Assembly: GCA_007859745.1 (NCBI GenBank)
Contig: SMLU01000001.1
Location: forward strand, 1,240,001-1,304,000
Length of the DNA stretch: 64,000 nt
Origin: Phycisphaerae bacterium RAS1
Lineage (GTDB): Bacteria > Planctomycetota > Phycisphaerae > UBA1845 > Fen-1342
Reading direction: 5' to 3'
In this document: piece after piece, positions 33,882 to 55,921 of the stretch
How positions within the stretch are numbered: position 1 is the first letter of the stretch
Layout of the letters: each line of letters opens with the position of its first letter
Position numbers and translations under genes: made by a program
Notes under the pieces: generated by a model
The model's input: the letters and a program-made list of their open reading frames with translations, nothing else
The model's database searches: none
Told to the model about the DNA's origin: nothing

Positions 33882-34222
33882 CGCCCTCTTCCGCGTCGCT
33901 CCAGATTCGACGGCGGCGAGAGTATAGCAGAGCCGGGGCGAGCGGGGCTATTCAGAGATGAGCGGCGATAGCGGGGGGTGTGCCCAGAAATCTGGGAAAG
34001 CTCGCTGGTTTGTCCGAACCCGCCGCGCCAAGCGGCGGGGTGTGGTGCGCGCAGCGCTCGTCGTCAATCTACGACGCGCCGCCGCGAACGCCCCGGACAT
34101 CGCCCCGCCGCTTGGCGCGGCGGGTTCGGAAAGAAAAGCCGCCCGCCCGGGAAGATAGGCACACCCGTAGCCGGTGCGGCCGAGACGCCCCCACTCCCCG
34201 ATTCTCCCGTGCGCTCACGGAT
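33882..34222. other. Gene-free region between the 694-aa gene and secA
   Basis: This 341-bp stretch holds the palindromic repeat at 34013-34130 and nothing else that I can support. Confidence 0.5.
34013..34130. repeat. CCGAACCCGCCGCGCCAAGC-family inverted repeat, copy 1
   Basis: Perfect 28-bp arms at 34013-34040 and 34103-34130 with 62 bp between. Other copies: 39283-39381, 46357-46476 and, within a gene, 54161-54258. Confidence 0.9.
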
Positions 34223-38210: not shown

Positions 38211-38393
38211 TCAGCCCCGGAGGGGCGAAAGAGTACAGCCCACGGCGCAAGCCGTGGGCCCCTGCGGAGTCACCAAAGAAGCCCCGGAGGGGCGAAAGAA
38301 CTCCACAGACGCGTACGGCCCAGCGTTCTTTCGTCCCTTCGGGGCTTGGCCGCAGACACGTCCCACCGCTTGCGCCGTGGGCTTTATTCTGGC
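38211..38393. repeat. GCCCCGGAGGGGCGAAAG repeat block
   Basis: Two direct copies of GCCCCGGAGGGGCGAAAG (about 38214 and 38282) and an inverted copy near 38331-38349 surround GCCCACGGCGCAAGCCGTGGGC (about 38238-38260) and its partner. It separates secA from efp. Confidence 0.8.
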
Positions 38394-38409
38394 GCCGCTC
38401 CGCGGCTGT

Positions 38410-38454
38410 TTCTGACTTCTGACTTCTGACTTCTGAGTTCTAACTTCTAACTTC
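38410..38454. repeat. Tandem TTCTGAC/TTCTAAC repeats
   Basis: Seven-base units TCTGACT and TCTAACT recur to the efp stop codon. The same unit, in a palindromic arrangement, is at 42036-42168. Confidence 0.75.
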
Positions 38455-39010
38455 AAGCCCGCTCCAGGTACTCGCCCGTACGCGTGTCGATGTTCAACAT
38501 CTCACCGATCTCGATGAACGGCGGCACTTTCACCCGCAGCCCAGTTTCCAGCTCGGCGTCCTTGGTCTGGTTGGTGGCCGTCGCGCCCTTCACGACCGGC
38601 GGCGTGTCCACCACCTTCAGGGCGACCGTGTTGGGCAGTTCAACGCCGACGATCTTCCCGTCCACAAACGAGCAGGTGATAATCTCGTTGCCCTTCAAAT
38701 ACTGGTCCGCGTCGCCGATCACCTCCGCCGGAATATGAATCTGGTCGAAGGTGGTCTGGTCCATGACAACGAAATCGTTGCCTTCGCGGTAGAGGTACTC
38801 GAACTGCTTGGTCTCGACAAAGGGCGTCTCGATGCGGTCGTCCACGGCCAGGCGCACGTCGATGACGTAGCCGGTCTTGAGCGACTTGAGCTTCGCCTGT
38901 AAGTAGCTGCGCCAGTTGCCTTTCGAGACGCGGGTGATGTCGCTGACGGAATAGAGGTTATTCTCGTGGAGAATGACCTTGCCCTTCTTGAGTTCGCTCG
39001 CCTTGATCAT
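38453..39010 (-). CDS. efp: Elongation factor P with Asn at the tip loop
   Basis: The 185-residue protein has the three EF-P beta-barrel domains: N-terminal KOW-like (MIKASELKKGKVILHENN), a middle OB domain with VDDRIETPFVETKQFEYLYR, and the C-terminal IDTRTGEYLERA ending. EF-P relieves ribosome stalling at polyproline. The loop that carries the modified Lys34 in E. coli reads SKGNWRSYLQAK, so the tip residue is Asn32, not Lys or Arg. The ATG at 39010 matches the family start; the open frame upstream runs through a 9-bp minisatellite and is not coding. Confidence 0.93.
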   Translation of the reverse strand: MIKASELKKGKVILHENNLYSVSDITRVSKGNWRSYLQAKLKSLKTGYVIDVRLAVDDRIETPFVETKQFEYLYREGNDFVVMDQTTFDQIHIPAEVIGDADQYLKGNEIITCSFVDGKIVGVELPNTVALKVVDTPPVVKGATATNQTKDAELETGLRVKVPPFIEIGEMLNIDTRTGEYLERA

Positions 39011-39282: not shown

Positions 39283-39381
39283 TCCGAACCCGCCGCGCCA
39301 AGCGGCGGGTTGACGACCGGAAGCGAGCAGCGCCCGACAGGCCGGGGACGTCGACCCGCCGCGTGGCGCGGCGCGGTCGGA
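39283..39381. repeat. CCGAACCCGCCGCGCCAAGC-family repeat, copy 2 (degenerate)
   Basis: Left arm 39283-39310 is intact. The right arm 39354-39381 has several mismatches (CCGCGTGGCGCGGCGCGGTC). Confidence 0.75.
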
Positions 39382-42035: not shown

Positions 42036-42168
42036 CTGGAAGTAAGAAGTTAGAAGTTAGAAGTTGGAAGTTAGAAGTTGGAAGTCAGAAGTCAGAAGTG
42101 AAGACGCGGCCCAAAGCGCGCCCCACCTCTGACTTCTGACTTCTAACTTCTTACTTCCGACTTCTCCT
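42036..42168. repeat. GAAGTTAGAAGT direct/inverted repeat block
   Basis: Tandem GAAGTTAGAAGT units on the left are matched in reverse by TTCTGACTTCTAACTTC units on the right around a GC-rich centre. It could form a long hairpin just upstream of thiS. Confidence 0.85.
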
Positions 42169-42199
42169 TCCGTATAATCGCCTTGAAGGAGTCTCGGCG

Positions 42200-46178: not shown

Positions 46179-46356
46179 CCGTGAGTTTCCATCGGCCAGG
46201 CAAGCCGCGCCCGAGGAAAGGACCGGGCGCGCCGAGAACTTCATCGCACCGCGCGCCCGGATTCTACCCCAATCGTGTGCAGGTTCAATGAACACCGCGT
46301 CAGGGCCGCGCGGTGCGTTACAACATGATGGGTAATCGAACGGGCGCGGGTGATAT

Positions 46357-46476
46357 TCGAACCCGCCGCGCCAAGCGGCGGGGTGAGCCCTCGGAGTCGG
46401 CGCGACGGCGCGCGCGGCACCGGTCAACGCGGCCTCGCAGGGTAGTCACCCCGCCGCTTGGCGCGGCGGGTTCGGA
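46357..46476. repeat. CCGAACCCGCCGCGCCAAGC-family repeat, copy 3
   Basis: Left arm ends at 46383, right arm spans 46449-46476. The arms are nearly perfect complements around 65 bp that differ from other copies. Confidence 0.85.
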
Positions 46477-51801: not shown

Positions 51802-53610
51802 ATGAATGCCCGAACGGCCTGTTATTCCCTGCTGATCGTGCTGGCGAGCGGCTGCGTCCTGGACGCCGGAGATCTGGACGCGTCCCTGAGCGCCTACCGC
51901 GAGCGCATGCTCGCCTCTTCCGAAGACCCGCCGGCCGGCGGCGAGCCGCTGGCGCGGCCCGCGACCGGCGCCCTGCCGCCGCGAAACGCGCTGGTCACGT
52001 CGGCGCCGTCGTCGCAGCCCTCGTCCGAGTCGATCCTGTTCGAGCTGCCCGATCCGACCGAGGCGGCCAGCGTCTTCGCCCGCCGCCTGCAGGCGCTGCG
52101 CGACGTGCCGCGGCAGGAAGAGCGCGTCATCAAGAATTACGAAGGCGTGCAGCGCTACGCGAACGAGTACCTCGCGCAAGTCGCGCGGCCGACCAAAGTG
52201 AAGCTCTCGCTCAGCGAGTGCATCCAGCGGGCGCTGGAGCACAATTTCGAAATCCGCGTCGAATCCTACAACCCGGCCATCAGCCAGACGCAGATTGTCG
52301 AGGCCGAGGCCGCCTTCGACACGGAGTTCTTTCTCGATTCCAGCTATTCCCCGCGCGACAACGCCACCGCCAGCACCCTGCAAACCGGAAAGAGCGACAC
52401 GCGCCTGGTTCGGGCCGGCATCCGCCAGTTGCTGCCGTCCGGCATGCAGGTTTCCACGTCGGTCCAGATGCAGCGCTTCAGCGCCGACTTCCAGTTTCAG
52501 CGGCTCAACCCGGCCTACAGCAGCTCTTTCGTCGCCGAGTTCCGCCAGCCGCTGATGCGCGGCTTCGGGCTGGACGTGAACCGCGCCCAGATCAACGCCC
52601 GCCGGGTCGAGTTCAACTCCGCCTACGAGGTCTACACGCAGCGCGTTCGCGACCGGCTGCTCGACGTCGAGCGGGCCTACTGGCGGCTGCTGGCGGCGCG
52701 GCGCATCGCGGCCGTCTTCGCCGAAACGCTGGCCCAGAACCGCGTCACCGCCGAGGGCATCGAGCAGCGCCGCTTTCACGACGCGACCGAGGTCGAAATT
52801 CAGAACTCGCGCGCCAGCTTCAAGCAGCGCGAGGTGCAGTACATCGAGACCGTCAAGAAGGTGAAAGACGCCGAGGACATCTTGAAGGGGCTGCTCAACG
52901 ACCCGGAGCTCCTGCTCTCGCGCGACATCGAGCTGGTCCCCACCGATCTGCCGCTGATCGCCGGACTGGCGCTGGATCAGTTCGCGGAAGTGCGCGCGGC
53001 GCTCGACGAGCGCAGCGAAATCCGCCAGGCGCGCCTGGCGGTCGACGGCGCGCGGATCAACACCGGCGTCGCCAAGAATCAGACGATGCCGCAGCTCGAC
53101 CTCGCGTTCCAATACGAAGTGCAGGGCGTGGGCGGCACGGCCGACAACAGCTTCGGCCAGCTCACGCAGTCGCGCTTTCAATCCTACAACGTCACGCTCA
53201 CGTTCTCGGTGCCGATCGGCAACCGCGCCCGCCTGGCGGCCTGGAACCGCGCCCGGACCCAGGAGACGCAGGCGATGACGCGCGTCTATCAGGTCATGGA
53301 AGCGGTCGTGGTCGAGGTCAATACGGCCGTGCGAAACCTCGTCGTTCGCTTCTCGCAGATCGCCCCGCAATACGAGTCGGCCAACGCCGCCGAGCGCAAC
53401 CTGCGGGCGCTGCAGGCCCGCACGGCCAAGATCGACCCCGCCTTCCTGGACACCGAGCTGCGCGGCGTCGAGCAGCTCAACTCAACCCGCCAGACGCTGC
53501 TTCAGATCATCACCGACTACAACATCAGCATCGCCGAGCTGGAGCGGGCCAAGGGCACGCTGCTCACGCACTACAACATCGTTCTGACCGATGAGCCGCA
53601 GCCGCGCTGA
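51802..53610 (+). CDS. TolC-family outer-membrane efflux protein
   Basis: The 602-residue product has a lipobox (LIVLASGC) and about 130 residues of low-complexity/linker. Two long TolC/OEP alpha-barrel repeats follow: LSLSECIQRALEHNFEIRVE...DVERAYWRLLAARRIAAVF and ...SYNVTLTFSVPIGNRARLAA. It forms an outer-membrane channel for a type I or tripartite pump; no pump gene adjoins. The ATG at 51802 is the signal-peptide start. Its last 20 bp overlap the next gene. Confidence 0.88.
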   Translation: MNARTACYSLLIVLASGCVLDAGDLDASLSAYRERMLASSEDPPAGGEPLARPATGALPPRNALVTSAPSSQPSSESILFELPDPTEAASVFARRLQALRDVPRQEERVIKNYEGVQRYANEYLAQVARPTKVKLSLSECIQRALEHNFEIRVESYNPAISQTQIVEAEAAFDTEFFLDSSYSPRDNATASTLQTGKSDTRLVRAGIRQLLPSGMQVSTSVQMQRFSADFQFQRLNPAYSSSFVAEFRQPLMRGFGLDVNRAQINARRVEFNSAYEVYTQRVRDRLLDVERAYWRLLAARRIAAVFAETLAQNRVTAEGIEQRRFHDATEVEIQNSRASFKQREVQYIETVKKVKDAEDILKGLLNDPELLLSRDIELVPTDLPLIAGLALDQFAEVRAALDERSEIRQARLAVDGARINTGVAKNQTMPQLDLAFQYEVQGVGGTADNSFGQLTQSRFQSYNVTLTFSVPIGNRARLAAWNRARTQETQAMTRVYQVMEAVVVEVNTAVRNLVVRFSQIAPQYESANAAERNLRALQARTAKIDPAFLDTELRGVEQLNSTRQTLLQIITDYNISIAELERAKGTLLTHYNIVLTDEPQPR

Positions 53611-55921
53611 CGCGCCCAACCCGCCCGCCGCACAGACGCGCCCGCCGCGGCGCGCGGCGCGGCTGAGCGGGCCGTGGCCGGCCGTGCTGCTGGGGGTGCT
53701 CTGCTATGCGAACAGCTACTTCAATGAGTTCGCGTACGACGACGTCGAGATCGTCGCCAAGCACCCGCGCGTCCGGTCGCTCGCCAATCAGAGGGAAATC
53801 TGGCTGAGCGACTGGTGGAAGCCCTTCCGCGAGGAGGATCGCGTCCTCGACAAGCAGCGCGACCGCCTCTATCGCCCGCTCGCCACGTTCTCCTTCGCGC
53901 TTCAATACGCCCTCAGCCGGGACGATCCCGCCGCGTACCACGCGGTCAACATCGTTCTGCATGGGCTGATGTGCGGACTGGTCTGGCTGCTGGCGCAGCG
54001 GCTGCTGGGGGATCGCAGCGTCAGCAGCATCGCCGCGCTCATTTTCGCGGTGCATCCGCTGCACAGCGAGGCGGTGGCCAATGTCGTCGGGCGAGCCGAA
54101 GTGCTGGCGGCTCTGCTGCTGGCGCTCGGAATCCTGGTGCTGCTGCCGCCGCTGCGTCTGTCCGAACCCGCCGCGCCAAGCGGCGGGGTGCCGCTCGTGC
54201 GCGCGAGACGCGCAACACAGGGCGACGTCGACCCGCCGCTCGGCGCAGCGGGTTCGGAAAGATCGGCTGCCGAGGCGGTCGCGGACAAATCGAATACGGC
54301 CGCCGGCTTCACGCTTTTTCGCACTCTGGCCAGCGTGCCTCTCTTCACGTTGGCGTTGCTCGCCAAGGAGACCGCGGTCTGCTACCTGCTGGTCGCGGCG
54401 TTGATCGCGCAGAATCGCGGGCGGCGGGTCGGCGGGCTGGCGAAATCCGTGTGGCTGATCCACGGAGCGATCCTGCTCTTGCCGCTGGCGGTCTATCTGC
54501 CGCTGCGCTACGTGGCCCTCGAAAACCACCTGCTGCGCGACCGCGAGCCGGCCATCGTCATGAACGCGCTGGTCGCGGCGCACGGGGGGGACCGCGTCTG
54601 GCTGCCGTTCTCAGTCCTCGGGCATTACACGCGCTTGGTGCTGGCGCCCGCCAAGCTGAGCTGCAACTACGGCTATGCCCTCATGGATCCCGCCGCCGGC
54701 CCGGACGCGATGACGCTGCTCGGAGCGCTGACCGCCGCCGCCGGAATCATCGGCCTGGGCGGCTACCTCTCCGGCTCGCACACGTGGCGACGAATCGCGT
54801 TCATGACGGCGCTGTGCGCCGCAAGCTACGTGCTGATTTCGAATACGGCGCTGCTCATCGGCGTCGCCGTCGCCGAGCGGCTGATGTACTGGCCGACCGC
54901 GCCGATCTTCATTCTCTTATCGCTCCTGATCGTCGAGGGCTGGCGCGCGTTCTGCACGAAAGAGCGCCCGCTGCACAAGTCAGCCGGCCTGCTCCGCGGC
55001 GTGGGCGTGGCGCTGCTGTTTGCCCTGGCGCTGCGCGGCTTCTTCCGCAACGCGGACTGGAAGAACAACGGCGCGCTGTTTCCGACCGACGCGGCGGTCT
55101 GGCCCGAAAGCGTCGAGCTGAACCTGGGTGTGGCGCGCGAGCTGCTGCCGCACGCCGCGCGCGCCGCCGGCCCGCGGCGGCTCGAGCTCGTGGCGCAGGC
55201 GCAGGCCCACCTGGAAACCTGCCTGCGGCTGCTGCCGCGCTATGACGCCGCCATGCGCGAGCTGGGCCGCGTCAAGGGTCTGCTGGGCGACTACGACGCG
55301 GCGATCGAGCTGCTCAGCACGGTCATTCAGATCGTGCCAATGGACCGGTTGTCCACGCAGCTTCTGGCCGAGGCGCGCGCCCTCAAGCAGGGTCGGCCGG
55401 CCGACACGCTGGAGAGCGTCCTGGCGCCTCTCGCCTCGCAGCCGGCGTCGGCGCCGCTCCATCGGCAAACGGGCGAGCGGCTGCTTTCGCTCGGCTATCC
55501 GGCCGAGGCGCTCGACGTGCTCAAGCGCGCCCGCGACCTGGCGCCAGAAGACGGCCAGACGCTGCGGTTGCTGGCGGACGCCTACGCCAGCATGAACGAG
55601 CCGGAGCTGGCGACGCAGACCTATCTCGACGCGGTGAAGCGCTCCCCGGACGACTGGCGGATTCACACCAACCTGGCGCGAATGCTGGCGCAGATCGGCT
55701 CCGATCGCCCCGCCGCGCTGCGGCACGCGCGCGAAGCCTACCGCCTGATGCCCGGCGACCCGCGCGTGAACATCAACCTGGCCGAGGCGCTGGTGGTCAA
55801 CGAGCAGATCGATGAGGCGCTGACGCGCTTCCGGCACGTCGTGCGGAACCTCGATCCCTCCGATCCGCTGCTGCCGGCGGTCGAGCAGCGAATGCACGAG
55901 GTGGAGCGCAATCGGCGATAA
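53591..55921 (+). CDS. TMTC-like GT-C membrane protein with TPR tail and in-frame palindrome
   Basis: The 776-residue protein has a GT-C-like membrane half (about residues 25-490). The acidic first loop EFAYDDVEIVAKHP is typical of TMTC/PMT-like proteins. Several helices follow, including the AVHPLHSEAVANVVGRAEVL motif. The soluble half (about 500-776) is made of TPR repeats. Residues 191-224 (SEPAAPSGG...GAAGSER) are encoded by the palindromic repeat at 54161-54258 and fall in a loop between helices. The gene starts with ATG 20 bp inside the TolC gene, suggesting coupling. Confidence 0.85.
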   Translation: MSRSRADAPNPPAAQTRPPRRAARLSGPWPAVLLGVLCYANSYFNEFAYDDVEIVAKHPRVRSLANQREIWLSDWWKPFREEDRVLDKQRDRLYRPLATFSFALQYALSRDDPAAYHAVNIVLHGLMCGLVWLLAQRLLGDRSVSSIAALIFAVHPLHSEAVANVVGRAEVLAALLLALGILVLLPPLRLSEPAAPSGGVPLVRARRATQGDVDPPLGAAGSERSAAEAVADKSNTAAGFTLFRTLASVPLFTLALLAKETAVCYLLVAALIAQNRGRRVGGLAKSVWLIHGAILLLPLAVYLPLRYVALENHLLRDREPAIVMNALVAAHGGDRVWLPFSVLGHYTRLVLAPAKLSCNYGYALMDPAAGPDAMTLLGALTAAAGIIGLGGYLSGSHTWRRIAFMTALCAASYVLISNTALLIGVAVAERLMYWPTAPIFILLSLLIVEGWRAFCTKERPLHKSAGLLRGVGVALLFALALRGFFRNADWKNNGALFPTDAAVWPESVELNLGVARELLPHAARAAGPRRLELVAQAQAHLETCLRLLPRYDAAMRELGRVKGLLGDYDAAIELLSTVIQIVPMDRLSTQLLAEARALKQGRPADTLESVLAPLASQPASAPLHRQTGERLLSLGYPAEALDVLKRARDLAPEDGQTLRLLADAYASMNEPELATQTYLDAVKRSPDDWRIHTNLARMLAQIGSDRPAALRHAREAYRLMPGDPRVNINLAEALVVNEQIDEALTRFRHVVRNLDPSDPLLPAVEQRMHEVERNRR
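54161..54258. repeat. CCGAACCCGCCGCGCCAAGC-family repeat within the TMTC-like gene
   Basis: Arms 54161-54188 and 54231-54258 match the intergenic copies. It begins exactly on a codon boundary (codon 191) and is read through in frame, with no stop. Confidence 0.9.

Follow-up and report, generated by a model that had tools for sequence, protein, structure and literature searches.

Palindromic repeats that lie in frame within genes, including uvrA genes, are established for Rickettsia, Opitutus terrae, Thauera and other bacteria (PMC10969869, PMC3733652). The accounts of the Rickettsia palindromic elements, RPEs (Ogata 2000 and 2002), that are relayed in these two papers describe palindromic units of ~100-150 bp, which occur in many copies and are translated in frame within unrelated genes; as relayed there, nearly half of the copies are located inside ORFs (PMC10969869, PMC3733652). 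RPE-6 and RPE-4 of R. conorii have been equated with CGTC-1 and CGTC-4 REPs (PMC3733652). CGTC REPs carry a CGTC, TGTC or CCTC head, an 8-9-bp stem opening with A and a 4-5-nt loop, and they form head-to-head dimers (Di Nocera et al. 2013, PMC3733652), which in H. neapolitanus are found within a longer palindrome (PMC3733652). The Results of this survey name CGTC repeats from five phyla without Planctomycetes, the abstract being less clear, and no transposase was known for CGTC REPs at the time (PMC3733652). QMITE1 and QMITE2 of Coxiella are bacterial MITEs with in-frame effects, QMITE2 having a GTAG REP and 7-11-nt direct repeats (PMC5896051). In the literature accessible without subscription we found no report of in-frame palindromic repeats in planctomycete proteins. 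For other bacteria in-frame REPs were already known, which qualifies the original prediction.

We analysed a window of 64,000 nt from the 5.5-Mb genome of Phycisphaerae bacterium RAS1 (contig SMLU01000001.1, positions 1,240,001 to 1,304,000). The segment at 54161-54258 was confirmed to be one copy of a palindromic element specific to this genome. It represents the element core, i.e. two CGTC-tagged REP-like hairpin arms arranged head to head, with the left arm TCCGAACCCGCCGCGCCAAGCGGCGGG at 54161-54187 (SEPAAPSGG in translation) and the right arm ACCCGCCGCTCGGCGCAGCGGGTTCGGA at 54231-54258 ((D)PPLGAAGSE(R)). The DNA fold of this core had an energy of -45.2 kcal/mol with a z of -5.8. The window contains four paired-arm copies, three of them intergenic; as had been predicted, both arms of the copy at 54161 are shared with those at 34013, 39283 and 46356. 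The first of these is a full-length copy of 191 bp at 33976-34166 (G000:C1:1273976-1274166; core 34013-34130) with the ends GGGTGTGCCC and GGCACACCC, while the cores of the other two span 39283-39381 and 46356-46476. With up to 3 mismatches allowed, the 26-nt arm yielded 454 matches on one strand of the genome and 410 on the other; the reversed control yielded 0. In 100 relatives the arm was matched only by two single hits, each with 3 mismatches. Because the arm is nearly absent from the relatives, we concluded that the family expanded in this lineage. Statistics on genes and paired copies were obtained from 2.06 Mb of the genome, which was analysed in stretches; genes were called by codon usage with a program of our own, giving a coding fraction of 0.83. 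This sample held 140 paired copies with their heads inward versus 44 single arms. A blastn search with the copy at 54161-54258, suggested by the original prediction, matched 155 separate intergenic stretches of the sample, the best with 80-84% identity over 107-128 nt.

The host of the copy is an ORF at 53591-55921 (plus strand) for a TMTC-like multi-helix membrane protein of 776 aa with C-terminal TPR repeats, as judged from the ORF list, Pfam TPR matches and an AlphaFold model. Because a Foldseek comparison of the model with the PDB gave only TPR superhelices among the 50 best matches, the TMTC label is based on the architecture of helices plus TPRs. The ORF was matched in 41 of 41 genomes searched, and the nearest homologues identified by name were metagenome-assembled planctomycetes, mostly Phycisphaerae. 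TCC at 54161 starts with the first base of codon 191 and the frame is open throughout, exactly as originally described. The GRAEL and KE motifs were 85 aa apart in the window's protein; in 18 homologues of other genera the spacing was 34-38 aa. This amounts to a net gain of 49 residues or 147 bp. Similarity to the repeat reached from about CDS nt 552 to 699, i.e. ~30 nt beyond 54258 on the right, where a remnant of the right outer arm lies at 54259-54289 (blastn matches to intergenic copies up to CDS nt 693-699). The 98 bp and about 34 added residues of the original prediction were therefore too short. Homologue spacing, pLDDT and repeat similarity place the inserted block at approximately 54149-54295 (plus strand, net +49 codons), each border being accurate to ± ~15 nt. 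At the sequence level, the block was shown to be an in-frame insert absent in homologues of other genera, the isolated extra block that an alignment had been expected to reveal. The AlphaFold model, built from 18 sequences, had a mean pLDDT of 81. Residues 191-236 had a pLDDT <50 and were flanked by confident helices at 167-184 and 237-258, in agreement with the predicted location in a loop between membrane helices. The codon-usage score falls within the insert. The insert appears harmless and is presumably translated as an extra loop of ~49 aa.

The cores of the copies were mostly 95-98 nt long with a second mode at 114-119 nt. From the centre outward, an arm consists of CGTC, two bases (AA or AC), CCCGCCGC, the 5-nt loop TTGGC, GCGGCGGG and a TTCGGA tail. 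In 177 of 280 arms CGTC precedes CCCGCC at a distance of two nt, and CCTC or TGTC variants were seen in others. Compared with their published descriptions, the element resembles CGTC REPs in the head, in a stem opening with A, in the 5-nt loop and in the head-to-head dimers. The CGTC tag of its arms likewise recalls RPE-4 and RPE-6, a likeness drawn from descriptions rather than sequences. The outer arms, which lie outside the core, fell into three subfamilies, with full-length copies of ~165-191 bp: subfamily I of about 166 bp with the ends GGGCGCATCC...GGATGCACCC, subfamily II of about 185 bp, and subfamily III, to which the copy at 33976-34166 belongs, of about 190 bp with the ends GGGTGTGCCC...GGGCACACCC. 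The outer arms terminate in GGGYGYRYCC inverted repeats and the boundaries are sharp. Outer-arm matches with and without a core numbered 34 vs 2, 32 vs 1, 40 vs 2, 17 vs 0 and 32 vs 1. Because outer arms were almost never found without the core, we consider the whole unit to be integral. As a short unit with terminal inverted repeats and without a transposase gene the element has the make-up of a MITE.

The flanks of the element carry target-site duplications. In subfamily I the identity of the flanks at 9 bp was 0.526 compared to 0.308 in shuffled pairs (sd 0.038), and in subfamily III the identity at 8 bp was 0.511 compared to 0.267 (sd 0.053; shuffled pairs). At 7 and 10 bp identity was at or near the control. 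For subfamily II duplications were not significant against the shuffled control. Single copies showed perfect duplications, e.g. accggcggc, gttcggcgc, caaatggca and tcgccgaa. Duplications of 8-9 bp imply a transposase of the DDE type. In the sampled 2.06 of 5.5 Mb we found no transposase whose ends match those of the element, and a scan of the same 2.06 Mb for inverted repeats with target duplications gave no credible long element as an autonomous partner. In contrast to the CGTC REPs of the 2013 survey, the element as a whole unit has both inverted repeats and duplicated target sites. Such duplications at a CGTC-REP unit look new, and they provide a handle on the movement of CGTC-type REP dimers that the survey had left open. 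With QMITE1/2 the element shares its non-autonomous nature, terminal inverted repeats and direct repeats; it differs in sequence, in carrying CGTC versus the GTAG of QMITE2, and in having copies in conserved genes, e.g. carB and addA. At the TMTC copy inverted-repeat ends were not recognisable. Thus this copy is truncated or decayed, and that it transposed itself we infer from the family.

Placement relative to genes was biased. HMM matches in the 2.06 Mb numbered 182, of which 162 (about 89%) were intergenic, 3 partly genic and 17 (~9%) inside 12 genes with in-frame copies. For a sample that is 83% coding the intergenic bias corresponds to a binomial p of about 4e-99; thus genes are strongly avoided by the element or purged of it. 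The predicted resemblance to RPEs is apt, with some differences. Like them, the element is palindromic, has many copies and lies in frame in unrelated genes. Unlike them, it is GC-rich, comes from a different phylum, has ~9% and not nearly half of its copies in genes, uses more than one reading frame, and possesses terminal inverted repeats with 8-9-bp target duplications. Protein-coding palindromic elements are thereby extended to a planctomycete lineage. At least one frame was open in 139 of 140 copies. Open frames are thus frequent on compositional grounds. Because 94 of 103 short-core copies had the SEPAAPSGG frame open, an open frame by itself is weak evidence. Most genes use the SEPAAPSGG/PPLGAAGSE frame; the CarB, UvrA-like and PKS-like genes use a PNPPRQAAG-type frame. 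In the 2.06 Mb no gene split out of frame by the element was found with a gene caller biased toward in-frame cases. The two closest candidates were separate genes by eye, one pair being an ABC ATPase beside an aspartokinase, the other two different neighbouring genes. A preference for divergent or convergent gene pairs was not significant when intergenic length was weighted (p=0.053). Two genes, G000:C1:66490-68412 and 1310994-1312316, end at a TGA inside the left arm and so have element-derived C-terminal tails (...FPNPPRQAAG* and ...FPNPPRLAAG*).

The TMTC loop that carries the element has also received other repeats in other genera. Most TMTC homologues have about 6 residues there, and two (from genomes G009 and G006) have 30 extra residues at this same loop. 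In G009 the extra DNA is made up of GATCCGAGCCCGAAGCGC units, for which the G009 genome gave 46 matches and the window's genome four weak ones; in G006 it is made up of ACCGGCTTCCAGCCGGT-type units, for which the G006 genome gave 85 matches and the window's genome six weak ones. A further genome (L191) has a shortened version of the G009 insert. In the family alignment, where the aligner split the window's own insert in two, three of the four internal insertions of at least 15 residues were located in this loop. On sequence grounds, three unrelated repeats were thus shown in one TMTC loop in three genera. Because the insertions in other genera are independent and of unrelated repeats, they show that the loop tolerates additional residues, which, along with the predicted structure, bears out the original view that it accepts them. 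This threefold use of one loop looks new and constitutes a natural experiment on selfish DNA becoming protein sequence. The same loop is enlarged by the repeat-like sequence VTGHRSRVTSPKSDLR in a TMTC homologue of Candidatus Latescibacterota (L222).

Taken together, we think it probable that the TMTC block represents one decayed copy of a palindromic, non-autonomous MITE with >400 copies and 8-9-bp target duplications, mobilised by a DDE transposase in trans and retained as a tolerated, translated loop. The full unit would comprise a terminal inverted repeat, an outer arm, a CGTC REP hairpin, a variable middle, a second hairpin facing the first, an outer arm and a terminal inverted repeat. It would insert with an 8-9-bp target-site duplication by means of a DDE-type transposase acting in trans, and insertions into genes would mostly be purged. 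The TMTC copy may have lost its outer ends after insertion; the remaining ~147 bp, stop-free and in frame, would be translated into ~49 disordered residues that lengthen a short inter-helix loop, the peptide probably being neutral and without a function of its own. The copy would persist because the loop tolerates extra residues. Hairpin arms in head-to-head dimers, together with 20 Y1_Tnp matches in the genome, would also fit a REPIN-like REP doublet moved by a REP-associated tyrosine transposase via single-stranded hairpins. Yet such movement proceeds without target duplication, while the outer inverted repeats carry duplications of 8-9 bp. In addition, none of 10 examined Y1_Tnp loci (of the 20) was flanked by arms and one had an arm ~1.3 kb off, and GTAG was close to the head in only 5 of 140 copies and absent in 135. 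The element thus differs from GTAG REP/RAYT systems in both the tag and a repeat-flanked tyrosine transposase gene, and because of the target duplications and the unflanked Y1_Tnp genes we consider mobilisation of this kind unlikely.

The protein could be free of the 49 residues if the hairpin were excised at the mRNA level or if ribosomes bypassed it. The high stability of the hairpin and the drop of the codon-usage score inside the insert would agree with this. On the other hand, all in-gene copies found were in frame and stop-free, out-of-frame split genes were not encountered by our in-frame-biased caller, and the block coincides with a predicted tolerated loop, so that we rate excision or skipping as very improbable. 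Recruitment of the peptide for a function, e.g. to make a specific contact at one face of the membrane, would accord with the conserved frame and with independent enlargement of the loop in three genera; since the three sequences are unrelated, disorder is predicted, no peptide is conserved across lineages and most homologues have about 6 residues at the loop, such recruitment has equally little likelihood. Ordinary divergence of the loop with a chance likeness to the repeat, for which nothing but the high GC content speaks, is refuted by the 155 intergenic matches, the 80-84% identity of the best copies and a control count of 0.

Inserts were not restricted to the TMTC gene. Homologues backed the element insert in five of the 12 genes, i.e. 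TMTC, CarB, AddA, an amidohydrolase and a spermidine-synthase-like protein. Compared with its E. coli counterpart (1bxr), CarB had four extra blocks, the second of which contains the element (+43 residues), and AddA had about +40 residues at the element compared to 3u44 with a weak match on one side. The amidohydrolase had 42 residues versus 6 in genome G023 (about +36), and the spermidine-synthase-like protein 45 versus 7 in G020 (about +38). A GH5-like protein of 1251 aa (L119:4404-8156; G000:C1:924404-928159) contains five complete tandem 138-bp in-frame copies (46-aa repeat TPPLGAAGSERPGSGGLSEPGAPSTG...). It had no homologue in the family, so that its insertion is a putative one. Among 1550 called genes of the 2.06 Mb, 51 had internal in-frame segments that match at least 5 intergenic stretches and derive from several repeat families; common translations were GGTGVSPV...GTGETPVPP and SRDREGA / PLPHGRGSE. 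Repeat-derived inserts in conserved proteins such as CarB, AddA and the UvrA-like protein can disturb alignments and phylogenies. To the broader proposal, that CGTC REP dimers may be part of a DDE-moved MITE and that planctomycete proteins may gather translated loop inserts from several such repeat families, some loops being recurrent landing pads across genera, we assign an even chance.

Several minor observations were made in the same data. The four extra blocks of CarB (L094:5000-8803, minus strand) are in frame, match several repeat families and are all flanked by regions alignable to the E. coli protein. A UvrA-like protein of 1798 aa (G000:C1:228324-233720) has, besides the element, about six blocks in frame that look like heptamer palindrome arrays (SSELGVASSELK, SEVGSQKSEVGSE, TSDFVLPTSDF). 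Intergenic inverted arrays of ~7-bp units (ACTTCTG/GAAGTCA) at 38401-38468 and 42039-42178 of the window are of the same kind as arrays inside the UvrA-like, CarB and CcoG-like genes. Four Y1_Tnp matches lie ~1.3-1.6 kb apart at G000:C1:2614693-2619377, three of them in tandem with a 1578-bp spacing. Finally, Acido-Lenti-1 RNA (RF01687) had two matches in the window, at 38213-38258 (minus strand) and 38362-38407 (plus strand), which form the arms of one inverted repeat.
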